Assembly (NCBI GenBank): GCA_001972305.1
Contig: BDDD01000267.1
Span: 191,624 to 255,623, forward strand
Source: Cephalotus follicularis
Taxonomy: Eukaryota; Streptophyta; Magnoliopsida; Oxalidales; Cephalotaceae
Direction: 5' to 3'
DNA: 64,000 nt
The notes beneath the pieces were generated by a model. That model had not been told where the DNA came from. It saw nothing but the letters and a program-made list of their open reading frames with translations, and did not search any database. Shown here piece by piece: positions 11,221 to 48,200 of the stretch; positions within the stretch are counted from its first letter, which is position 1; each line of letters begins with the position of its first letter. The position numbers and the translations under genes are program-made.

Positions 11221-12708
11221 TTGCACCAATTGCTTTCACCCTCCTCTCTTTAAAACAATGAGTGCTTTTGGTTCTATCGGTGCTCTATGTAAATTTATTT
11301 GATTTTGAGATGCATTTTTTTTAGTTTTTCATTCCAAATTCTTTAATTCGGAATGAATCAACTGTTCCGACTTTTCCATTATCTTTGATAACACCATTGA
11401 GACGGTGCCCATGCTAGTTAGATTCAAGAATGATCGGAAATTTAGATGTTCAATACACCTCCCGATCTTTTCTCGTAGTACTCTGTACATTATTTTTTAT
11501 AAAACCAAAAAATCAAAGTTCAGTAATTTAGCTCCGGAGGCAGCATATATGAACTTATATTAGGAAAATATTGAGTCATTTATGACATATATAGAACTAT
11601 GTATGTGAGTGCACATATGTAGCTGATGTAATCATATTGTCGCCCAATCCCTTCATAGTCCCTCAATCATGATTGATGAGAAACAGAGGCCAAGTGGCCC
11701 TATACATTAAAAGAAAATTATGCACCAGTGACATCAGATTGTACGGACATGGACCCTTTATTCAGGTGGAGGCTTGATGCAAGGAATCTATCAACTGAAC
11801 TGTAGTGTAGATCTTTTTCTAGTTCAGATAAAAACAAACACATAAATTATCTATTATATTCGTGTGCACTAAAAAAAAAAAAAAAAAACTTGTAAACAAA
11901 GTAACTGAAAAAATTGCTTTAGAATTGATATGTTGATTGAGTGTAAACAAGACACCCAATTTCAGGGTAATTAAGTAAGCTAATGTTCACAAAACCCAAT
12001 AAAATGATTCCTCCGGCCAAATCACTTTTTTTAATCATAACAACTAATTACTATTCTAATTCTAAACACCACTTAATATTGTACTTAAATAATGTTGCAT
12101 GTGATTGATTAGTGGGGGTTTGAGATTAATAAACACTTAGATAATGTTGCATGTGATTGATTAATGGGGGTTTGAGATTAATAAACGGACAAGATAATAA
12201 ACTATCATATATAATCAAGTACATGCGTTACAAAAATCAGCTAAAGTTTATCAGATTGAAGTGGGTGTCTTTATATTATTGCAAGATATATATATCATCA
12301 TTTACTCTTCTAACCTTTACTTTTGCAACAATATAATGGATGGTTACTTTTTCATGTTACATGCTGTGCTAGTATGATAAAAGCCACTTGAAAAGGTCAT
12401 TCAATAGTATGAAACGTATAACATCAGTGCATATATCTTTGGTTTAATTTCATTGGATGCAATTTGAAATACCTTACACTAAGCTCTTGGTGAAAAGTTT
12501 TTTGCATGCTCACATGGTACAAAACACATGATGTATCTAACCAATAATGCACATTTATATAAGTATTAACTAGTTATTTTATCTTTTCTTTTGTCAATAA
12601 TGCTTTTTGTAACATATGAGGTGGTATAACAAATACATAGCATATGATGTGTCATCCAACTAGTAGAATGAAGTAAAAAAAAAACCGATGTAATTATTAT
12701 TCATTCCA
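11221..12708. other. Intergenic, with one tandem duplication
   Basis: A+T-rich DNA with a poly(A) run near 11871-11888 and the duplication at 12083-12186. No gene was recognised. Confidence 0.5.
12083..12186. repeat. 52 bp tandem duplication, two copies
   Basis: ACTTAAATAATGTTGCATGT opens copy one at 12083 and ACTTAGATAATGTTGCATGT copy two at 12135. The 52 bp units differ at only two or three places, so the duplication is recent. Confidence 0.85.
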
Positions 12709-13811
12709 CAACTAGAAAAATAACATTTTCGTCTCAAAATTTTATTTGAGACAAAATTTGAGACGAAAATTTTCTGTCTCCAAATTTAGTTTTGCAAAGC
12801 AAATTTGAGACAGAATTTTCAAGTTCGTCTCCAAATTTGTGACAGACAAATTATGTCTCAAATTTGTTTGAGACAGAAATTAAAATTTTTCAACAAGAAA
12901 TATTTGTGACAGAAAATTCCGTCTCAAAATAGTGATTTAAAAGGACAAAAAACACTTATGGAGACAAAAATATTTGTGACAGAAAATTCCGTCTTAAAAA
13001 CGCTTACGGAGGCACTAAAATAAATAAAAAGATATTAAAAAACAATGATAATGTACAAAGGTGAATATCATTTGATTTATAATATGTATTTTTCTCTTAA
13101 TATGTTGTTTGGATATATATCTAGTTTGAGTGTAGCGAACATTTATGTTATTATCGCCAATTAATATCACATATGTGGATGATAATTATATATAGAATAA
13201 TTAGTTTGAGTTTCAGTTTAGCTCATAACAATTAATGATTATTCAATATATTTATCTAGAGATTTAATCATTTTTCTACAAGAAAACAGAAAAAAAATAA
13301 CTTTCTAAAACTATGACCCATTTTTTTCATCCCAAATTTGAGGTTTATTGGACATAACTTTTTCTAGAAATTAAATATTACCTTGTAACCAAATGCATTG
13401 TAAAGTAGACATCAAGAGTTTTTCAACGATTATTCATTTGCCTAATTTGGATAATAAATGAGAAAACTATGACGTTTACAAGTTGAGAAAAAATTAGCTT
13501 CAAATTTTCAAAATTAAACTTTTTTTGAAAAAAAATTACTCTTGAAAATTTGAGACGGAGTGAACGGAATTTCCATTCGCTAGCAAAAATTTATGAATAA
13601 ATTAAAAGAAAAGAAAACTATTAAAATTTTGCGGAATATAAATTCCATCTCTGGACTGTAAATTCCGTCTCAAAATTAGAGACAGGATCAGCATTCCGTC
13701 ATTAAGTTTTTTAATTTTTAGAATTGTGACGGAAAGTCAATTTCTATCGGTAAGCTTCGTGTTTTTAGAATAGAATTTGTTTCTGTCTTAATTTACCGTT
13801 TTCTTATAGTG
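12709..13811. mobile_element. Non-autonomous CACTA-like element with subterminal motif arrays
   Basis: The right end, read inward on the minus strand, is CACTATAAGAAAACGG, a typical CACTA (En/Spm) terminus. The left end CAACTAGAAAAATAAC is a decayed counterpart. Both flanks are packed with GACAGAAAATTCCGTCTCAA-type motifs in both orientations, as in CACTA subterminal regions where TNPA-like protein binds. No coding sequence was found. At 1.1 kb this is an internally deleted or MITE-like derivative. No clear 3 bp TSD was visible, so the left border is approximate. Confidence 0.65.
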
Positions 13812-15412
13812 TTATATTAGTTAGATAAAATTTATATGTTGTTAATAATATTATTGTTATTTTATAGATAAATTTTTTTATTATGTTTATGTAATTATAT
13901 ATTATTGATTAAATGAATTGTATAAAGTGCAATAAAGAAATATTACTGTAGATGCATCATAATAACCGAAAAATTAGACCTAAAATATACAAAAGGAAAA
14001 TTCAAGAAGATAAAAGGAGAAAAATAATAAACAAAAGCAAGGAGATGCTTTGATGCAGGGCAGCTGAGAAGCCAAAAATGACAAACAAACAAAGGGCAGA
14101 AGCGCATTTAAGACACCAACCTCGAGGGCTCATATAAAGAGAAAGTCCCAAGCAACAGTGCACTCAGTTCAAACCTGAGTGAAAGTAAAATAAACATCGA
14201 AAAGACGTAATCCTCAGGTGTTGTTATACTGACTTTCTTTTTCTTTTTTATTTTAATAGTGACCTTGATTTTATATGGTTAATATTATATGAGTTTATAT
14301 ATCTTGTTATATATGGATCATATCATCTCACGTACAGTATCACACCAACTAAAAAAATAATGTTAGTAAAGAGAACCGGGACCTCTAGCTAATATCATTT
14401 GAATTTTTTTTTATTTATTTAACAAATCAAGACAAAGTTGCAGTGGGTTATGTACTTTATGGTAGGTAAAAACAACAAATTTTATACAGTAACACTATAA
14501 CATGTATGGTTTATAGACTTCTGGTAGGTAAAAACAACAAATTTTATACAGTGACAGTAACATATATCTTAACCCCAATCGCCAGGGGTAGGTAGCTAAC
14601 TCTGTGAATTAAAAAGAAAAAATAAGATTAATCCATGTATTTTATCCTATCAATAAGTAGATAGGGTTTTATGTATGGCTAGATGGATAGACGATATAAC
14701 AAGTTATATTCAAATTGAGAATAGATTACACAATAACGATAACTCTCTATTTTTTTTCTCTTCAAATTATTCAATTTCATGTATAAGTGACGCTTTCATA
14801 AAGTTTGAACTCAAACATGGTATTTCATTATGAATGTCCTTCTTGTTTAAAACAAGTGACATTTACGCAAAATGAGATTACTAAATTTTGGAATAAATGC
14901 ATTTTTGACTGATCTAAAGTCACAGATTTTGGCAGGATAAGACCTAGCAATTTTTGCAAATAATATATCTAATTCTTGTTATCCAAAGGAAGGGAATAAT
15001 TACATGTGAAAGGGTGTTCCATTTAATAACTTTTCTTATGAGTGCATTTCTCTAATTAAAACAGTAAGTTCATTTAATATTTTATCATGATATCAAAATT
15101 TTCAAATGGGTATCTTTAATTATATGGATAACGAACATTTATAATCAAATATATATTATTGGCGTAACGTAACCATATAAAATATCAAAACTAATAATTT
15201 GTATTTTTACAGAGCACAGAGTGTTTGATTTTATAAATCCTTAAAAGAGTGATTAAGCAATGTAACGTAATTGGATGTTATCCTTTTTATTTGTTCAAAA
15301 TTCTTATATAGAGTACTGCATGCCAGCATAAATTAAAAAAGGAAAGGAATGCTAAAACACCAACAAAAAAAAAAAAAAAAACTAGGGTTTCGGCAGATGG
15401 AGACGTGTAACT
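13812..15412. other. Intergenic, distal upstream region of MIR172
   Basis: No protein gene was recognised. Near 14133 CATATAAAGAG resembles a TATA box and is followed by a G+C-richer 100 bp stretch ending in CTCAGGTGTTG (14214 onward), which could be a short exon and donor site; this is weak. A 62 bp offset duplication lies at 14460-14558 and an A-run near 15365-15380. Confidence 0.4.
14460..14558. repeat. Partial tandem duplication, period 62 bp
   Basis: TGGTAGGTAAAAACAACAAA occurs at 14460 and again at 14522, each followed by TTTTATACAGT and then ACA or GACA; beyond that the copies diverge. Confidence 0.8.
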
Positions 15413-15640
15413 GCTGGTACTGTTAGTGCAGTACCATACAGCTAAGCATCACCCAATCAAACAACAAACACAGTAAACACCAAATAGAATAAAAAGAGAG
15501 ATAAAACAACAAAAATCAATAAAAACTTCGCTTCATCTATTTATTATATATACCCTCTCCAGCAATATATTGTATCCAATACCATCACTGTGAATCTCCT
15601 ACAAATCTCTCCCCTCCTCTCTCTCTCTCTCTCTCTGATT
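15413..15640 (+). promoter_or_regulatory. Probable MIR172 core promoter and 5' leader
   Basis: TTATATATACC near 15545-15554 is a good TATA box, with CCAAT at 15453-15457 about 90 bp upstream and a CT-repeat leader at 15608-15637, the layout of many plant RNA polymerase II promoters. Transcription would begin near 15575-15590, about 550 bp before the hairpin. An interrupted inverted repeat, GCTGGTACTG (15413-15422) with CAGTACCATACAGC (15429-15442), lies just upstream. CACATTTCAG near 15929 could be an intron acceptor, but splicing cannot be settled here. Confidence 0.55.
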
Positions 15641-16138
15641 TAGATCTTAAGTGTGTTTTGATGTGTGTGGTATTTCTTTTTTTAAATAGAGATTTGGATA
15701 AAAATCTAACATTTTTTCTGTAATTTGCGTCTTTGTTCCGAATTCCATCGGAGAAATCTTACCCACAAATCCACAACTATAAGTTTAGATTGTAGCCAAC
15801 TCTAATTATGTTTGTAATAGGTTAGTATATGGTGCCATCTTTGGTTCTTTTCTAAATATAAAGTATTTGTACTGTTTTTTTTTTTTTTGGCTTACTAAGA
15901 TGAAAAATAGGGTTTGTTAATCACATTTCAGTTTCACCACCAATAAGATCAGCTCCAGCTAATGTGATCATTGTCCAAGTCTAGTCCAAAAAGTCCAAGT
16001 CCTTTTTTTCCTCTTGTTTTTTCTTTGAATTTGGCTTAACTATATATGTTCTCTTCTTTTCCTTATATAAATCCATTGATAAAGATTGAGTCATCAGGCT
16101 GTGTGCATGGAATAGATTGAAAGTCGTTGTTTGCTGGT

Positions 16139-16159
16139 GTAGCATCTTCAAGATTCACA
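16139..16159 (+). ncRNA. MIR172: miR172 star strand (5' arm)
   Basis: GTAGCATCTTCAAGATTCAC plus A pairs with the mature strand at 17 of 19 duplex positions, two of the mispairs being U-U and A-A, and leaves 2-nt 3' overhangs, as DCL1 products require. Confidence 0.9.
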
Positions 16160-16227
16160 TGCAAATGCACGGTGGTGGTGATTGTAATCTCTCTCTCAAT
16201 ACTTTGCCAAATATTCTTTTGACAGTG

Positions 16228-16248
16228 AGAATCTTGATGATGCTGCAT
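16228..16248 (+). ncRNA. MIR172: Mature miR172 (3' arm)
   Basis: All 21 nt agree with the widespread plant miR172 sequence that starts with A (miR172a type) and ends GCTGCAT. Confidence 0.95.
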
Positions 16249-16262
16249 CGGCAATAGACGAC

Positions 16263-17821
16263 TATATACATAAAGGACTTTTGCATAGTAACACCTCATC
16301 AAGTGCCACTTTGCATCTCAAACAACATAAACAATAATAAGGTGATTGATCTTTTTAGCTACTTCCTTTATTTGCTCTCAGTTGGGTATATTTCTGTTAT
16401 TTCTACTCTGGATCTCTTTATGCGAAACAAGCAAATCTCTCAATGGATTTAGTGGCTGTTACTGTACATATACTATATATATCTTCTTTTCTGCAATTCG
16501 CAGAGAATCGCAGAAAACTGTTAGATCTTGCAGTTTATTTGCTAGTTGACTTTATTATTCTTTTATGCAACTGTAGATGCTATCTTTGTTATATGTGGAG
16601 AGCTTCTTCAGGGAGATTGGTAAAGAAGTAGTTATTGCATTTATAAGGTGGATTCTTGAGAACTAAACAAGTTTTTTCCGTTCTCTTCTTGTTATTTAGT
16701 TTTGCTAATTGGGTGTTTAGATTAATTAGATCCACTTTACATTTTTAATTTTGATCATTATTTTCAAGCAAAAAAAAAATTTAATGTTATTAATAATAAA
16801 GTTTTACAACGGTAAAAGAAGAACCAATGATGTATCAAAACATCATCGATTATTTTGATTTTTAATAAAAAGCAAACAATGATGTTTTGACATACAGAAA
16901 ATCCTGTTGTCGTCAATAACATAACTCAACTCATATTTGTGGTTTTTTGAGTTAGCAATAAGCCTTGTAGAATGGTGGCCGCAAGAGTTGCTATAATAAG
17001 GTGTGAAAATGAAGTTTTTTATTCATTTGCATCCATCTGGGGTTTTAATGATATACTCAATAACAAAAGACTGAATAATATATGGGTTCTACTTTCCATC
17101 ACCATATTAATTTGTCTTCGCTTGAAATTGATCCAAAATATACTTGATCGTTTTGTATAAAAATGACTTATTCCATGTCGGTTTTTTCCTGTGGAATTAG
17201 TAGCTAGATCTTTGAAGATTGGAACTGCTCTTAATTTCAACTTTGATATGCAAAATCTATGTGGGAACATTTATGTCACATTGTCAGCCATCTGTGTTGG
17301 CTTTAATCAACTATGACTCGATGTAGACCATTCACAAGAGACCAATCTTGCCACTTGGACCCTTTTGCATGTACTCTCACTCTCCTTCTCTCTCATTAGT
17401 AGGACCCCAAGAGTATCTCTCATATTATCTTCGTGTACATTTGCTGCTTCATCCATGGCAGTAATGATTTAGCCAATTCAAGATCATGGAAATCTGTGTG
17501 CCTCCATCACTATCCAGGGCCTTGATCCACATTTCTGTGCCCCTGATAAAGGGTTATGTCCACGGTTTCATTCAGTTTTGTCTAATTCTTTATTATGATT
17601 AAACATGGCCAGTGGGAAGTAATATTAGGCCAGTGATTCCCTCATTGTTCTTATTTGAGATAGAATACTTCTAGAGATTTCTCGATCTCTCATATATATG
17701 TTTGTTGAGTTACTTTTTCGATAATAAGAAAAAAAAAACAAGCTAAGGGGAATGATATTCATATGGGTCTCAAGCTATAGCTTTAAACATTATTCATTTT
17801 TAAATTTGAAATTTCTAGTTG
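16263..17821. other. Downstream region of MIR172, extent of primary transcript unknown
   Basis: No coding gene was recognised. The primary transcript probably ends within the first few hundred bases, but no convincing polyadenylation signal could be chosen. A small foldback lies at 16803-16912. Short frames at 16346-16631 and 16972-17270 look like chance. Confidence 0.5.
16803..16912. mobile_element. Candidate small foldback element
   Basis: GATGTATCAAAACATCA (16829-16845) and TGATGTTTTGACATAC (16880-16895) form an imperfect inverted repeat, with weaker pairing outside it. The TATCAAAATATCAT / AATGATGTTTTG wording recurs near 21840, 41035 and 44600. Borders are approximate. Confidence 0.4.
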
Positions 17822-18172
17822 ATGTTCTCTCTATTCTTTTGGGAAAACATCTTAAATCCCATATCGGTTAATTATAATGAGTTGGGGGTTGGCCTTACCC
17901 TATAAGTAAGGCTTGTATGTATGAGTTTTATTTACTCATAAATTTCTATTACATCAAATAGCTAATTAAGTTTGACTATTATGAAGAGTATAACTGGCTT
18001 TTGAGTAGTAAGTGTGGTGAGTTTTTTTTGCAACTTTTTTCTTTGTAAAAAGTTGTATTGTAATTAAAGTTTTAGTGGAAACCGTGGATTTAAGCATTTA
18101 TGAGTTTGCCTGAATCACGAATTATTGTGTTATTTATTTTTATTGTTTTATTATTTGTTGTGTTTGTGCCAA
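17822..18172 (+). repeat. 5' LTR of the small copia element (approximate ends)
   Basis: Matches 19574-19905 through AATCCCATATCGGTTAATTA, GTAAGTGTGGTGAGTTTTTT and AAAAGTTGTATTG. The start is less well kept than in the 3' copy. Confidence 0.7.
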
Positions 18173-19573
18173 AGGTTTTGTCTATTAAATTTGGGGTTTC
18201 GCTGCTGAGAAAACTACGATGGAAGGTATGTCTAAATTTAAGATTCCTTGTTTTTGATTGAAAGAACAATTTTACTTTGTGGTATAGTACCATTCAAGAT
18301 GTTTTGGTACAACAAAGCATTGATTAAGTATTACAAGACGAAAAGCCGAATAGGGTGACTAATAGAGACTGACAGAGAATTCAGAAGAATGGTCAGCACA
18401 ATCAGGTTAGTTTTTGCTCCCGAAATCTAGTATAGTGTTTAAGGAGACCACACCGAAGGGTTTATGGAGCAAACTCGAGAACATCTATGCGTCGAAGTCG
18501 TTGACTAATAGATTTTGCCTGAAGATGGATTTATATTTATTGAAGATGGATGAAGGTACGAGTCTGAATAATCATATTTAATAAGCTAGTGTCTCAATTA
18601 ATAAATATTTATGTGGATAAGTTAAAGGAAGAAGAAAATGCGTTATTATTGTTGTCTTCCTTATCCAAATCTTAGAGACCATTTGTTCAGATATATTAGC
18701 GGGCAAATCTACGTTGAAGTTGGATAATGTCATTGCCTTGGTATGTGAAAATGAAAGACTAATGGGGAGTGTGAACTCATCAGACGAGAGAAATGCACTA
18801 ATTGTGAAGACTTCTAATCGAGGGAGGACTCGAGAGAGGGGAAATAGTGGTACAAGATGGAGATCAAAATCAAGTCTCAAGATGATAGTGAGATTGAATA
18901 CTACTACCGTGGAGAGAATGATGACATCGTTGTAAGAAGTTCAAAGAGGATTTAATGAACTTCAAGAAGTTCAAAGAGAATGTTAATTTGAAGGAAGGAA
19001 AAAGTGATTCTTGTGCTACGGCAACTGATTGAGACAATAATGGGGGTATTTTGTTAGTTAAAGGTATGGATGACTCTCTTACATGTGCTGATGATAATGG
19101 ATGGTATTTGGATTCCATTGCTTCCATACATATTTGCAAAGATAAAGATTGCTTTACAACCTTGAATGTTGATGGAGATTTTGGCTACATCACTGTTGGC
19201 AATAAGGAGGGAGTGAAGATTGAAAACGTAGGGAGTGTTCGTCTCAAGCTTCATATTGGTGATGTGAAAACTCTTTGTCATGTGAGGTATGTACCTAAGT
19301 GTAGCACTAACATTATTTCTTGGGGAGAGTTAGCATCTCATGGGTACGCATATGTAAGCCAAGGAGTGCAAGGTGTCCAAGTAAGAGAAATTGATTTTGT
19401 AAGGTAAGAAGAATTGGAAACACATGTATTTGCTAGATGGCACTGTAATGGTTAGCAAGCCAAGAGATGAAGATGTTCTTCTTTTTCATGTCAAGAAGGA
19501 AAAGAAGATTAAGAAGCGTGTGAGGTTCTCCGATAATGTTAATGTTGAGGGATTTGAGTTGAGTGGGATTTGT

Positions 19574-19905
19574 TGAAAAAACACCTCAAATCCCATATCG
19601 GTTAATTATAATGAGTTGGGGATTGAACTATGGGTGAGCTTTATTTACTCCTAAATTTCTAGTACAATAAATAGCTAATTGAGTTGGACTATTACGAATG
19701 GTGTAACTAAGCTTTTAGGTAGTGAGTGTGGTGAGTTTTTTGTAACTTTTCTCTTTATAAAAAGTTGTATTGGAGTTGGAGTTAAAGTTTTAATGAAGAC
19801 CATGGACGTAAGCATTTGTGAGTTGGCCAAACCACGAAAAAATTTATTGTGTTGTTTATTTTCATTACTTTAAATTATTATGTTATTTATGAAATTGCTC
19901 TTTAA
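19574..19905 (+). repeat. 3' LTR of the small copia element (approximate end)
   Basis: Begins TGTTGAAAAAACACCTC directly after a purine-rich GAGTTGAGTGGGATT stretch, which would be the polypurine tract, and matches the 5' LTR along its length. Confidence 0.72.
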
Positions 19906-21788
19906 TTCCTAACATATTCTTAGTGAAATATTGTACTACCATACTTCACTTAATTAAGGTCACCTGGAAGGTGAGCTCCATCTTTGGCTTTTAGGACTCT
20001 TTAGTGTTTCCTTCTTTGTGTGTGCATGTTAATAAAAAATGTTAAGTTAGATAAATAGTTTAATTACATTTTAAATACTTTTTCCTTCTCATAATGTTAC
20101 TTTTGAGTTGAACTTCAAGGTTTTATATTCTATCAAAACTAGGCTCAAACCATCTTTTAATCAATGCCATTATGAAACCTCTTATTCTAATTGATTACGT
20201 TTCTATTTTGCAGTTTTTGACTCTAACACAACGTTTGGGTTGGACTTCAAGTCTTAACAGCAAATAACCGAAAAGGAAGAAAAATGGAAAAGAAATCTTT
20301 AGTGTGGTCGACCATGTGAAGCAACACTGTATACGGTCAATCCGTATTTAGCTTCAATTAAAAGGTTGGTTTTCCAAGCTCATTCACTTAATCTGCATAT
20401 TCTGCATATTTCTTCAAGTAGTGAATTAGCTGTACTTTTCTCTGCCTATATGCGCGTATGCCATGATGTTTATCTTCATTCACTTTTCACTGTTGAAATT
20501 GACATGATGCTTATCTACTTAATTTAATTCCGTATCTGATCATGATAGCAAATAGAACAAAGCAGCAAGATTACAGGACTGTGGTCTGTGGTGACAATTA
20601 TTATTGCGTTTCTATTGTTGCTAGATTGTTACATGTATGTTGACAGACTTGAATTATTTGAAATAATTAATTAGTAATATACAGCCTCATGATAAGAACT
20701 AAATGACAGTTTATCATAATTGAAAAAGGTAATAATGAAAATTTTACCATTCATTATTCATGCCTTAGAGCTATTAGAGTTTTTGAACATAGTTTCTTGT
20801 GATCTATTTTTACCATCATGCTCTCATTAAAAGTTGTGTCACTAAATTTGTATTTATGGTGTTTATTTAATTAGGTACCTCCTAATGATCGCTCCTAGCT
20901 ACTCTCACACAAGATCGAGCTTTGAGATTTTAAGATTTGCAAATATCATTTGTTGCAAGGAGTATGGGGAAAAAAGGAACTTTGTACATATCACATGACG
21001 CAATAGATGGATTTAGATCCTCTCCAGTCTCCAGTTCTTGAGTCCTATAGTGAGGATATATGACATGAATTATGGATAAGGATAAAAATAAAGTTGATGT
21101 CCTTACCATACCATTGGGAACAGGAACCGGAGATGACCCATTTTGGACCTGTAATTGATCGATATCTTGTTGCAATTAAAATCTTATTACAAGTTTTAGT
21201 CTTTGTCCAATTTCTATTTCTTTATACTTTCACTTGGGTTATCAATTTTCCCTGGATGTTGGAAAAAAAAAATTCCTGAAATTAAATGAGGACTTCCACT
21301 ATCATTAATTGGTGTTGCCCAGCTATCTGAATTTTCAGTTTTTCACTGACAAGCATCTATGACTATTAAATAGCTAGCCCAAAGTACAATGCATTTTCAC
21401 ATATAAAATGTCTCGTGTGTTTGTATGTTAGTGAGTGTACCCAGGTGCTTGCATGATTGCCAAAACAAATTACAAGAGGAACACTACATTTCCGGACTTG
21501 CACTTGATGGAGTTTACGAACGGCACAAAGACTAAAAATGTGAAGGTAGGTTCGAATTACTACCTGCATATCCCTATCAACTTACAAAATCTTTTCCTCT
21601 TAACTTATAAGCTCTTAAATTATTTCTTTGCAATATTTAGCTCATTCCTCTTTCAGTTCAGTATCAAAAAGCTAGACAGATTCTACTGAAATCGATCGTT
21701 ACAACAAAATCACCATAAAGTTTGATAGTCTGTCACTCATTGATGGTATGGTGGGATGCTAGTTAGTTTATATTTTGATTGATGTTAC
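19906..21788. other. Intergenic, nothing recognised
   Basis: A+T-rich DNA. Short frames at 20930-21279 and 21366-21689 lack domains, and no RNA gene was seen. Confidence 0.5.
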
Positions 21789-25385: not shown

Positions 25386-28300
25386 ATGTCTGTGGACAGG
25401 AGTTGGATGCGTAGGCGGGTAGTTCGGGGGTTACTAACGGAGGAATTTAACATTTGTGTGCTCGGTTTCCTAGATTTTGCATTCTCAAACAGAGAGTTTG
25501 TCTAGAATTGTAAGATAAAATGTCCTTACAACCGTTGCAAGTTAAGGGCATTTGGAACTCAATCTGAAGTGCGGTTACATTTGTTGAAAAACGGTTTAAC
25601 CATTGATTACACGTTATGGGATCAAAATGGAGAAAGGAGGGAACGTCGTCGGGCAGCAGTAGAGCATCCAGACGCCTTAGGTCTGAGCAATCCTTTTGTT
25701 GATCTCATAATGGATGCTGGGGGGTTCGAGTTTGATACTCGTGAAGATGACGAGCCGGCCGATGAACTTCTGAATCTCAATGCAAAGAAGTTCTATGACC
25801 TGCTTAAGGATGCGGATGAACCGTTGTGGAATGGTTGTAAAAAGCACACCAAGCTATCTATGATGATACGACTCATGAATGTCAAGTCCAAGTATGGGAT
25901 TCCTAATGAGGGCGAGGAAATTCTTCATATCGTTAAGAGCGGAATGCCTGAGGATAAGAAGTTGCCCAAGTCTTATTACAAGCTGAAACATATTATGAAG
26001 ACATTAGGATTGGGCTACAAAAAGATAGATGCATGTGTTGATGATTGTATGTTGTATTACAGGGAGCACAAGTGTGCTACAGAGTGTACAACATGTAATC
26101 ATCCTATATTCAAACCTAGCAGTGGGGGAAAGAGAAAGAAACATGTACCTTACAAGGTTTTGCGTCACTTTCCAGTGGCACAAAGACTTCAGAAGTTGTT
26201 TCAATCAGATAAAACATCTGCTGATACGAGATGACATAGTAAGAAGATGAAGGATAACGATGGTGACGAAGTGGGAATGGTACACCCGGTTGACGGTGAA
26301 GCTTGGAAGCACTTTGATATTACTTTTCCATATTTTACTGCAGAGGTTGGCAATGTTAGAATAGGATTAGCAAAGGACGAGTTTTGTCCTTTTGGGGTTA
26401 GTAGTAGTGTTTACTCTTACTATCCTGTTTTTGTTTTCTCATACAATCTTCCACCTTGGTTGTGTATGACTAAGTCATTCATGTTCTTGACCTTGATTAT
26501 ACCTGGACCAAAAAGCCCAGGGAAAGATATTGATGTGTTTCTACGTCCACTTGTTGACGAGTTGAAGATATTGTGGGAAACTGGAGTTATGATGCGTCGC
26601 ACAATAAGAACTTTCAGATGAGGGCAGCTTTAATGTGAACGATTAGTGAATTTCTTGCTTATGGAATGCCGTCAGGCTGGAGTACTCATGGTCATTTGGC
26701 ATGCCCATATTGCATGGGTCAGACTAAGGGTTTTAGATTGAAGCATAGTCAGAAATATTCGTAGTTTGACTGTCATCGTCAATTCTTGCCCACAGACCAC
26801 CAATTTAGAAGAGACAATCAAAAATTTTTGAAGGGTCGACGGGTGACCGGGGTGGGTGGAGAGGTTATCAGGGGAAGAGGTAGTGGATCAACTCCCCAAG
26901 TTGAATGAAGTTGGGTTTGGAAAATGTGTACCCGCTATTAAGATTCTTCGGTTCGGGAGAGTACACAATTGGACTAAACGAAGTATCTTCTTCGAACTTC
27001 CTTATTGGAGTAAAATACTAGTCAGACACAAGTTAGACGTCATGCACATCAAGAAGAATGTATTTGAAAATATTTTCCACACGGTCATGAATATGAAGGG
27101 CAAAATGAAGGACCACCTACAAGCTCGACTTGATCTAAAAGAGTTGAGAATAAGATCTGAATTACATGCAGAAGAGGTGGATGGGGGTTTCATATTGCCT
27201 CCAGCAAAATATTCATTGAACAGTGAACAGATCAGACAAGTATGTGAATGGATGACAAAGATTAAGTTTCCTGATGGCTATGCCTCAAACATATATATCT
27301 CGGTGTGAATGTCTCAGAGCGTAAGATTTCGGGTTTGAAGAGACATGATTGCCATGTCTTCATGCAGAGGCTTCTTTCGATTGCATTTTCTTAGTTCTTG
27401 CGGAGAAATATCTTTGTCGTATTGGTAGAGGTCAGTGAGTTTTTTCGGAATATATGCTCAACATCGAACAGTGCTGTGAAGATGCACTTGCTCCATAGTA
27501 ACATTGTTCAAACAATTTACAAAATGGAGAAGATATTTCCTCCATCGTTTTTTTATTCGATGGAATATCTTCTCGTCTACTTAGCTTACAAAGCGAAAGT
27601 AGGTGGATTGGTTCAGAATACGTGGATGTATCCAATTAAGAACAAAGCTCGTGTAGAAGGGTCGATTGCCGAGACATACGTTATTCGAGAGTTGACAACT
27701 TTTTGTTCGTATTATTTCGAACCTGATATCCCGACAAGGTTGAATAGACCTGATCAAAACTACGATGGGGGCACCGTTGCAAGTAACAAATTGCTATCCA
27801 TGTTTAGTCACCTCGGTAAAGCACTGGGCCAGACAGATAAAAGAGATATGACAAACAGAGAGTATGACGCTACATATTTGTACATCCTTTTGAACTGCGA
27901 TGAAGTCAGCCATCTGGTTGAATTATTATACATATATATTGTACTAAGTTTATACTTTATTTATACTAATTGTCCAATTTGAACGTATCTCACTTATATG
28001 CTTTGTTATAGTGAGTTCGAATAACTAGTCAGTGAATTAAATCCTAATATTACCCCTAAACAAATTGAAGAAGAACGCAATGCACACTTTGTGAAGTGGC
28101 TTCAAAGCCATGTAAGTAATGCACTATTCTATTAATAAAGCGTCTATCAGTTTCATATTTTTTAATTGTTGATTTAGATTTCTATATTCCGTGTGTATTC
28201 ATTGGATGCTTAATAGCTTAAGAATGACAAGGAAGTTGATGCTTGTGTACAAAATTTAGCAAGTGGATCTGCTACGAAAGTAAGGTCGTGGAAGGGGTAT

Positions 28301-29011
28301 GTCATCAACGGGTGCAAGTTTCACACCAAAGATGCATCGATGACCTCAAGAACTCAAAATTTAGGTGTCATGATCAAAGGGAGAATTTGGAATGATAGTT
28401 GTAGTGACTTCTACGGAGCCTTGGTCGACGTTGTAGAGTTTGATTTCTACAAAAAAGATAACAAAGTTGTTTTATTCAAGTATGATTGGGTTGATACTTT
28501 GGATAGAGGTACTAGAGTAGATGAGTTTGGGATTGTTCGTTTGAACCCAAAATAAGAACTCCCTACTTACGAGCCGTTCATGCTGGCAAGTCAAGTTGTG
28601 CAAGTGTTCTATGCACCCAGCGTTTTCAACGATCGTACGTACAATAGGTGGGTAACTGTGATAAAAATGAAACCCAAGAATGCTTATATCCTTCCTGATT
28701 AAGAAGAAGAAGATGACCACAATTTGGATATGGAATTGACATTGCAAAAAGATGTCGATGGTAGGCCACTACGATCATTTGCAGATAATGTAAGTCTTGA
28801 AAGTGATGATTCCCTTCGAGGAGATAGGGAAGGATAGGAGGTAGTAGTGCCTCCAAATGTTCGAATAAGGGATCCTACGTCAGACTATGACAACACGGAT
28901 GATGGGAAAGATGAATGGGAAGAGGAGGATTCTGACACGGATGAGGAGGACGAAGTGATTGAATATGATTCCGATAGTCAAGACGACATGGATATTGATA
29001 ACATAGATTAA
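25386..29011 (+). pseudogene. tnpD/TNP2-like CACTA transposase, decayed
   Basis: Domain order is that of plant TNP2 transposases. A transposase-associated domain starts at ATG 25386 (MSVDRSWMRRRVVRG, then KCPYNRCKLRAF). The Transposase_21 catalytic region follows (LPKSYYKLKHIMKTLGLGY near 25960-26020; HPVDGEAWKHFDITFPYF near 26290; YGMPSGWSTHGHLACPYC near 26660-26710). Next are a DUF4218-like region (VRHKLDVMHIKKNVFENIF near 27020-27080; KARVEGSIAETYVIRE near 27640-27690), a DUF4216-like region (VMIKGRIWNDSCSDFYGALV, VLFKYDWVD near 28370-28500) and an acidic tail to 29011. A stop at 25503, stops at 26232, 26636 and 26762 where family members have Trp, and a frame change near 26580 make it non-functional. 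Relative to the family, about a dozen residues are missing between WMYPI and KNKAR (near 27635). Confidence 0.9.
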
Positions 29012-37224: not shown

Positions 37225-38138
37225 GGATGATTCCAGGCTGGTGAGTCCAACTGGGGAGAATTCCGCCGAGCAGGTGAACCCAATGGGTGAATACCGCGAG
37301 GCAGGTGATCCACGGACGAATCCGCTAATGGTGAACCTAAAGGTGAATTCCGCCAGTGCTGGTGATCCAAAGGGTGAACCGTCAGAGCAGGTGAGCAAAG
37401 GGCGAATTCCGCTCGGCAGGTGAACCCGAAGGAGAATTCCGCGGGCAGGTGAGCCTAAAGGTGAACCATGTATAATGACCAAACCATAGGATGACCGGAC
37501 TAGACTCCTCCGTGATATGATTTGTTATGTATAATTCGAGTTGAGCAGTCCGAGAATAAAGGATAATGACGATTATGCTAAGGATTATGCATTCATGTAG
37601 GCATGCACATTTATTATATTCTCCTCTGCTTGTATAATGTTTGTGTTCCTCTCCTCTGCCTATAACGCCTAGAGCGCGTATATTGCTCTTCCTACGGCTG
37701 AGGAACCTGAGGAACCGGTCTGCCTGAAATTCCTCGGACGAATCCGCTAATGGTGAACCTAAAGGTGAATTCCGCCAGTGCTGGTGATCCAAAGGGTGAA
37801 CCGTCAGAGCAGGTGAGCAAAGGGCAAATTCCGCTCGGCAGGTGAACCCGGAGGAGAATTCCGCGGACAGGTGAGCCTAAAGGTGAACCATGTATAATGA
37901 CCAAACCATAGGATCACCGGACTAGACTCCTCCGTGATATGATTCGAGTTGAGCAGTCCGAGAATAAAGGATAATGAAGATTATGCTAAGGATTATGCAT
38001 TCATGTAGGCATGCACATTTATTATATTCTCCTCTGCTTGTATAATGTTTGTGTTCCTCACCTCTGCCTATAACGCCTAGAGCGCGTATATTGCTCTTCC
38101 TACGGCTGAGGAACCTGAGGAACCGGTCTGCCTGAAAT
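37225..38138 (+). repeat. GGTGAACC/GAATTCCGC array and 0.4 kb tandem duplication
   Basis: 37225-37480 repeats units of the kind CAGGTGAACCCGAAGG followed by GAATTCCGC. A 417 bp segment (37314-37730) is then repeated at 37736-38138 with few substitutions and one 14 bp length difference, so the duplication is much younger than the LTR family. Confidence 0.88.
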
Positions 38139-45204: not shown

Positions 45205-48200
45205 TGTTAGGTTTTTCAAACCTTAATCAATCCTTAAATGATGATTTTGATGATAACAAAAAGTTTCAAGTAAGCAATCTCAAAAAAAAAAAATGAAAGA
45301 AACTGAACCTCAAAAAAAAATATGTCTTCAATTTGAACTATACTGACTTGTCAAATAACGTCGACATGAGGCTCTTTTAAGTCGACGTGCTAGAGATTTT
45401 TCTTACTCGTGTAGGAGGTCATGAAGAACAAGTCAACGTGTTGTTGTATTAAGTCAACGTTCAACGCTTTAAATAAAAAGTCAAGTCAACATATGAAGAC
45501 GAAGTCGGCATATGGAATTTATTTTTAGTACAAAAGTTAGGCATAGACTTTTGCCAAATTAAGCTGACGTCTTAGCCATATCAAGTCAACATGCTAGGAA
45601 ACTATAAGAACAGGTCAACGTCTAATGAAGAATAGGTCAACATGTAACACCCCGCGCCCGTAGGGCGGACACGTGACATTACTCTCAATCCACTATACAA
45701 TACAATGGTCGGGACTAGCAATATAAAAATGCGAAAAACTTTAAAACTTTGCAATATATCTCATTTGCGGAAGTTACAATATCAATGATCCATCCATACA
45801 ATGCAATACAAATCCTTTACAATACTAATCTCTTACAATACACTTATCAATCTTTCAATACAGCATTACAATACAATACATTTCCATCTTTCACTACAGT
45901 ATCTCTATCAGCTTCGCGATACCCAAGAAGTCGTGCGGTCAACGGGTCTTCAGTCCTTCTGTCCACTGCTACCTGCTGCCCTACCTATGACGCACACAAA
46001 GTACAACACAGCCCCACCCCGAAGGATGGGGTTAGCCACATTGGCTAAGCAGAAACCCCATGCAGCATGTATGCATGTACAATGTGCAATATCGGTGACA
46101 ATATATACAATATCAATGTGCGGTGTACAATATCAATGCATGACATGGAAAATGCATGTGTACAGTTGGCGATCAAACTACCCGTATGACAATGGCCCAT
46201 CAGAGCATACGGATAGGATCTATAACAATCAATCAATCCATCATTCAATCCATCAATCAATAGCAGACATTCGATGGTGGTGTATAAAACACTCAATCAA
46301 TCAATCAATATCCTATAGAGCATGCGACTGGTGTCAATACAATGTCAATAAGTTAGCAATGATCAATCCCACGGAAGGTAGTCCTTCAAAAATGGTGGGA
46401 GATCTATCTACGGTTCTCAGACTGATCAGGTCTGGAACTCATAGATCTTACAGCCTATGGCCGGGTCAATACAATCTCGATGAGCTACAACTGAGGGAGC
46501 TACTGATACCGTTAGGGAGCTACGGCCCTCAATGGAGCATCAATCAACAATCAATCGGTACCGCTCGTCAGCGGGTCAATACAATACAATAAATGAAACG
46601 ATCGACGGAATAGGTGGACATAGTCAACAACCTATCCTGCTGACACGAATCATAAGGTCGCTCTATAGGATCCATGCAATATAATCAATCAATCAATCGA
46701 GTCAATACAATGTTAAGTAAAGTCAATAAGTGATGGTGTCTAATAGATAAATGGAAACGTGCATCTATCGTACCGACTTAGACTCACAACAACACTCATG
46801 ACTCAAGCGATCGATCAATGTATCAATACAACGTCGAAGCAAAGTCAATAAGTGGTGGTGCCTAATGGAGGGATGGGAACGTGCGTCCATTTTACCGACT
46901 TAGACTCACAACAACACCTATGACCCAAACAATCAATTAATTAATCGATCAGTAGCCGCTAGGCGGTGACAATCGAATCGGCGGAATAGGAATGAACATC
47001 TATTTGGTCAATGAGAGTCACTGAGTCGTCACCTATGGCCCAAGCTGTCACTCTATCAATCTATCAATTCGATCTTTGAAAACCATTGAAAACTGTGTTT
47101 TAAATGCTTGAATACCTCAAATGAGGTTCCGGTCAAGCGACAATGTGAAAAGGATTGAAAAACCAGCTTTAAAAGTTAAAAATTCCACTCAGCCCGAAAG
47201 GCATCGATGTCTTTAACAAAAGACGTCGATGCGTATCAGGGCATGCTTTTGAAAATGGTAGAAAGACGTCGATGTTTTCTCAATTTGGCCGAAGACGTTG
47301 ATGTCCTTAGACAAAGACGTCGACGCGTTTCAATGAAAATGGCTTAGGAATGCGCATCGATGTCTCGCATCGATGCCTTCTCTGGGGAAAGGCATCTCAA
47401 GCAAAAGACGTCGACGCCTTTGAAAGACGTCGATGTCTTTGTTGTGAAATCAAGGAGGCTGTATCCCAAAGCAAAAGATGTCGATGTCCATGGGCAAAGG
47501 GATCGATGTCTTTGCTGGGAATGGCTGATTTTTTTACAGAAAACCAACAATTTTCAAGCCAAAACCCAGTCAAATCCATTCTTTAAGAAACCAAGGGTTA
47601 AAAATCAGTCTTTAAGGTTAGTAAAACTAGTTAAAACCTTCAATTTAACATTTCAATCTTCCTAGATCCATTAGGTCAAGGAAATCAATAAAAACCCTAG
47701 TTTCACAATTCACTTCAATTCAATCATTCAATCACTCAATCAATCATTCAATTCAGCCAATCAATCAATAAAGCAATAGGCAATTCAGTAAAGAAGTCAT
47801 ACATTTCACTGAAGCTTCAAAAATTGAGCTTCCAAACAATCGATCGGTAGAAATCGCCCAAAAATCCGCTACTTTCTTGTTCAATGGATAAGCCATGACT
47901 TGCAACCACTATCCTTGTTGAAGGAGATGCAATTCCGGCTGCAAGGGAAGAAGATGGAGGCTCCAGCTAGAGAGAGAGAGAGAAGGATAGAGAGAGAGGA
48001 AGAATGAGTGAAAAAAATGAAAGAATGAGAGTGAGAATTAACTTTTATTGTCAATTCGACCAACTCTCTGAAACTCAACCCAGAATCCCGACTATACATG
48101 CATAAAACCAATACAATATCAATAGGTATACGAATACCTCAATTCAATACAGTTCAGTACGGTCCAATACGGTACGATGTATGCATGAACAGTACAAAAG

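Follow-up and report, generated by a model that had tools for sequence, protein, structure and literature searches.

The window analysed here, a 64-kb stretch of the Cephalotus follicularis genome (part of contig BDDD01000267.1, referred to as C267), carries a MIR172 gene, a well-known microRNA gene that helps to set flowering time. It is very probable that the gene present here is an ordinary and intact one and that, separately, part of it has been copied into a dispersed repeat elsewhere. The features on which this description depends are as follows.

16127 to 16258, forward strand: MIR172 precursor hairpin (Rfam RF00452, 88.5 bits; fold z-score -3.69)
16139 to 16159, forward strand: miR172* in the 5' arm (from the pairing table, with 2-nt overhangs)
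16228 to 16248, forward strand: mature miR172 in the 3' arm (exact sequence, unique in the window)
16190 to 16629, forward strand: stretch of the gene that recurs as fragments (whole at contig C4273; 16181 to 16538 at C7760; 16277 to 16538, twice, at C2090)

Positions 16127-16258 match the MIR172 model over its full length (model positions 1-114) with a score of 88.5 bits against a gathering cut-off of 70 and an E-value of 1.8e-18, and this is the sole gathering-level Rfam match across the 64 kb. No other stretch of the window comes within three mismatches of the mature sequence, AGAATCTTGATGATGCTGCAT, which we take to be of the Arabidopsis miR172a/b type, and none of 100 shuffled sequences contained such a match. 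Folding of 16080-16300, as proposed in the initial annotation, revealed that the two arms pair, with a value of -68.7 kcal/mol compared with -52.4 (standard deviation 4.4) for shuffled sequences, none of 200 of which folded as well. In the pairing table the mature and star strands form a duplex with 2-nt 3' overhangs, mismatches at 16228 and 16238, one G-U pair and no bulge, beneath which the lower stem of the hairpin extends. The miR172 identity over 21 nt and its coordinates, the star pairing with 2-nt overhangs and the extended lower stem had all been proposed from the letters of the sequence, and are borne out by the full-length Rfam match with the exact mature sequence, by the pairing table and by the fold, respectively. 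A score above the gathering cut-off, a mature strand in the 3' arm, few mismatches and the absence of a large bulge place the locus in the MIR172 family, with which it shares the full-length model, the canonical 3'-arm mature strand, the 2-nt overhangs and the presence of AP2-type targets in the genome. It differs in a star-strand variant, GTAGCATCTTCAAGATTCACA, and in a repeat fragment within the presumed leader, neither of which, in our judgement, lies beyond normal variation in the family. Judged by its sequence, then, the locus is an intact, ordinary and conserved MIR172 gene, of interest mainly for annotation.

The place of the locus among its relatives was examined in the assembly as a whole (1.58 Gb in 9746 contigs). 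The exact mature 21-mer is found at two places, and the 19-nt core without mismatch at four: C267, C259, C1325 and C1772. The last three carry further full MIR172 hairpins, scoring 87.9, 82.0 and 80.5 bits, respectively, and the window locus has the top Rfam score of the four. Nine places, three of them MIR172 loci, match the complementary target pattern with two or fewer mismatches. Reading of the other six, with peptide and domain motifs that we presume to be those of AP2, revealed four AP2-type sites, at C3141, C317, C5085 (AAASSGF) and C910 (NAASSGF), while the places at C941 and C1344 read as something else. An AP2-domain-like exon lies within 1.5 kb of the target site at C910 and C5085, and none was seen within that distance at C3141 and C317. 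The four MIR172 hairpins and four AP2-type sites together indicate, at the level of sequence, that a normal miR172-AP2 module is present in the genome and that the window locus is one member of it. Near matches to the mature core were also encountered, 22 with two mismatches compared with two for a reversed-pattern control; four of these are star strands or an AP2 site. The remaining 18 were considered as possible MIR172 genes and rejected, since 17 had loci and none of the 17 gave a MIR172 match. Seven of the 18 have one common 19-mer, two mismatches off the miR172 core, whose six loci (L012, L026-L029 and L031) belong mostly to one repeat family of approximately 90% identity and contain no MIR172 hairpin; the excess of near matches over the control is due in part to this family.

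A genome search with 16110-16640, in which all six candidates were scored, returned the locus itself, C259 and four truncated copies, one each at C4273 and C7760 and two at C2090. All four adjoin a dispersed repeat or lie within it. The fragments at C4273 and C7760 run from the loop (16190 and 16181, respectively) across the mature miRNA and on into the 3' flank, up to 370 nt downstream and spanning at most 440 bp, and the C2090 copies begin at 16277, beyond the mature sequence. The 5' arm of the hairpin is unmatched in all four. The copy of the mature sequence has one change in 21 at C4273 and is more decayed at C7760. At C4273 the repeat runs on at both sides of the MIR172 piece; the flanks of this insert, 422-436 bp apart in C4273, lie just 19-40 bp apart in seven of 14 other copies of the repeat (L058, L059, L061 and L063-L066). 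Short similar motifs, CATGCAnATGCA and TTTATAA, are found at both junctions. A query spanning the C7760 junction gave 50 rows (40 of 250 candidates scored), six of them representing the fragment loci and the window and 44 matching the repeat side only, the latter ending short of the junction or no more than about 10 bases past it. Kimura two-parameter (K2P) distances are 0.150 between the window and C4273, 0.148 between the window and C7760, and 0.174 between C4273 and C7760, with 0.170 for the repeat flank shared by these two. C7760 and C2090 are closer relatives, being 98% identical over 1.75 kb and having approximately 8 kb in common at 95-97%. The two fragment-bearing units at C2090 (L044 at about 47021 and L043 at about 64551) are 17.5 kb apart, with the same end base and different flanks, one of which resembles, in our reading, a copia polyprotein.

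A host fragment internal to a repeat, seven of 14 copies of which have the flanks without it, suggests that a dispersed, transposon-like repeat captured part of a microRNA gene. Up to approximately 440 bp of the gene would have been copied into the interior of the repeat, replacing a few tens of bp, most likely once and long ago, and the captured piece would persist as fragments at four places that are no longer proper miR172 precursors. The arrangement is similar to transduplication by Pack-MULEs, Helitrons and CACTA elements in having the host fragment inside the repeat, copies without it and similar motifs at the junctions. The repeat itself gave no match to a Pfam family at its cut-off, and recognisable terminal repeats, a target-site duplication or Helitron ends were not found at the 8-kb C7760/C2090 unit; an En/Spm-type coiled-coil protein in the repeat is an unsupported impression and is not claimed. 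The repeat is accordingly not filed among the Pack-type families.

Several observations weigh against capture. Two repeat copies (L062 and L067) carry other sequence of several hundred bp at the insert site, three (L060, L068 and L069) retain the downstream flank only, and two (L070 and L071) have neither flank at the threshold used. The repeat flank at C4273 is almost as near to that of the empty copy L059 (0.178) as to that of C7760, and the case for a single capture therefore rests on the shared junction and not on a tree. Furthermore, the repeat gave neither a usable Pfam match nor recognised ends; its mobility is inferred from copy number alone, and the direction of copying is presumed. 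It could be, instead, that the four fragments are relics of ordinary whole-genome or segmental duplications, with repeats invading later. A separate promoter-like relic at C519 (described below), the long stretch common to C7760 and C2090 and the want of recognised transposon ends are all compatible with duplication, but the explanation is nonetheless considered unlikely: the repeat flanks the MIR172 piece at C4273 on both sides, the same flanks almost adjoin in seven of the 14 other copies compared, and the fragment loci showed no further homology to the window beyond 16181-16629, save for an unrelated gypsy-type match. Capture by the repeat is accordingly preferred. Gene-fragment capture is a known process, and a microRNA gene is an uncommon source. 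In the open-access literature searched, including passages of PMC2773440, PMC13317346, PMC10004981 and PMC7140873, no description was found of a plant repeat that had captured part of a MIR172 gene, and in PMC13317346 the word 'microRNA' appears in the reference list only; such silence is weak evidence of absence.

The regions on either side of the hairpin contain the following features.

15417 to 15434, forward strand: two GTAC cores of SPL type (at 15417 and 15431), upstream of the TATA (motif only)
15545 to 15551, forward strand: TATA-like TATATAT of the presumed promoter (motif only; presumed start near 15580)
15634 to 15773, forward strand: dispersed-repeat fragment in the presumed pri-miRNA leader (genome copies, alignment of seven)
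12707 to 13811, no strand assigned: probable non-autonomous CACTA-like element (degenerate ends, genome copies; 3-bp flanks not identical)
17838 to 19912, forward strand: short, old copia-like element with two LTR-like ends (edges approximate)

A review (PMC7140873) places MIR172 under activation by SPL factors and AP2-like genes under repression by miR172. The GTAC cores upstream of TATATAT fit this scheme, but since nine GTAC occur in the island of approximately 4 kb that surrounds the gene, the motif alone proves little. RNA polymerase II presumably initiates downstream of the TATA at 15545; the transcript would fold at 16127-16258, DCL1 would release the duplex of 16139-16159 and 16228-16248, and the 3'-arm miR172 would repress those AP2/TOE-type genes of the genome that bear the matching site. 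Expression and processing of the gene, and an effect on phase change, would be expected on this basis. The segment between the TATA and the hairpin at 15634-15773, whose derivation from a repeat had gone unmentioned in the initial annotation, matches at least 34 other places at 81-87% over approximately 15666-15773 (40 of 82 candidates scored), and in an alignment of seven copies the homology among them runs past the segment. With a start near 15580, this piece would be transcribed within the pri-miRNA leader. By comparison with the genome, 15780-16110 gave no match besides itself. A promoter-like stretch, 15415-15525, is matched at C519 (153795-153909, L076; 116 columns, 81%), which is either what remains of a duplicate or a further copied piece. 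C519 was rejected as a second MIR172 gene, since 6 kb contained neither a 21-mer within five mismatches of the mature sequence nor an Rfam MIR172 row.

MIR172 sits in an island of roughly 4 kb that is bordered upstream by a probable CACTA-like element and downstream by a short and old element of copia type, and the distances initially estimated (about 1.7 kb from the former to the promoter and about 1.5 kb from the hairpin to the latter) hold when the edges are taken from genome matches. The ends of the CACTA-like element are at 12707-12719 and 13799-13811. Stretches inside 13010-13812 match at least 23 other contigs (40 of 778 candidates scored), with the matches from C3225, C3699 (twice) and C2476 reaching the right end at 13802-13812 and one weak row from C239 overrunning it by 25 bp. 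The terminal inverted repeats are degenerate, however, the flanking triplets (TTC and TTA) are not the same, and the end motif by itself occurs at close to the chance level (four matches, with at least four in 5 of 100 shuffles; one match in another search, with at least one in 48 of 100). The CACTA label is accordingly likely but not proven; the right end is supported by genome copies. For the downstream element, 19 rows start at 17836-17846, and before 17836 the only match is to the window itself (40 of 414 candidates scored). Its ends, at 17844-18159 and 19578-19884, resemble long terminal repeats (LTRs) and are 76% identical (K2P 0.19 over 299 sites), and the Pfam domain Pol_BBD is located between them, i.e. 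the two LTRs and internal domain of a copia element are present. No reverse transcriptase was found between the ends of this element of approximately 2.1 kb, which is therefore regarded as non-autonomous. At substitution rates of 0.65-1.3e-8 per site per year the insertion would be roughly 7-15 million years old; with an LTR distance of 0.19, it is not recent. The age of the downstream element does not favour the suggestion that neighbouring insertions alter the expression of MIR172, and both elements lie outside the island.

Alternatively, the locus could be a MIR172 copy that has decayed or fallen silent and survives only as sequence, with miR172 supplied by the other three loci. The repeats that hem it in, together with the repeat fragment that separates TATA from hairpin, could feasibly be associated with such a copy, but a dead gene beside elements this old would be expected to have decayed, and instead the mature 21-mer shows no change, its duplex is clean and the Rfam score is the highest of the four loci. 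A silent copy is therefore deemed very unlikely, and an intact gene remains the preferred description.

The gene had also been described as the only confident host gene in the window. This stands as far as the Pfam scan extends: the 30 open reading frames scanned, out of 38 that run from stop to stop over 100 codons or more, showed either domains of transposons or retroelements or no domain at all. At 25506-28552 on the forward strand, separate open frames hold pieces of a CACTA-type transposase (Transpos_assoc, Transposase_21, DUF4218 and, below cut-off, DUF4216), and copia and gypsy remnants are found elsewhere in the window. An open frame of 267 codons at 45789-46589, also on the forward strand, has no Pfam match, and 37309-38138 comprises a tandem duplication with a spacing of approximately 410-420 bp and 98-99% identity.

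With respect to function, the captured MIR172 fragments are probably inert. The Rfam scan gave a sub-threshold full-length MIR172 match at C4273 (36.3 bits, E-value 1.9e-4) and no MIR172 row at C7760 or C2090. The C4273 fold has a z-score of -2.81 (3 of 200 shuffles as good) and that of C7760 -2.05 (6 of 200), and the predicted C4273 fold divides the mature region between two helices, with one arm derived from repeat sequence. That C4273 is a working miR172-like gene with its 5' arm supplied by the repeat is hardly credible, despite the single change in its mature 21-mer, the fold and the full-length match, as its score is half of the cut-off and there is no single mature/star duplex; a working chimeric precursor was rejected on these grounds at C4273 and, for want of a MIR172 row, at C7760. 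The C7760 fragment has the same strand sense as the adjoining open frame, and consequently a simple target mimic would not be expected from it.

In a regulatory family so deeply conserved, the gene itself is to be expected, and its use lies mainly in annotation. The fragments suggest that conserved microRNA genes, too, can be subject to gene-fragment capture, and they matter for annotation as well, since a short-pattern search returns C4273 as a one-mismatch miR172 match. They would also allow possible cross-talk between a microRNA gene and the silencing of repeats to be tested. Activity of the fragments, whether via transcripts or 24-nt siRNAs acting in trans on the 3' region of the parent gene or via a miR172-like RNA formed at C4273 with the repeat-supplied 5' arm, is considered highly improbable; if it did occur, the level of a microRNA that acts on flowering time would be coupled to the silencing of a repeat of transposon-like character.
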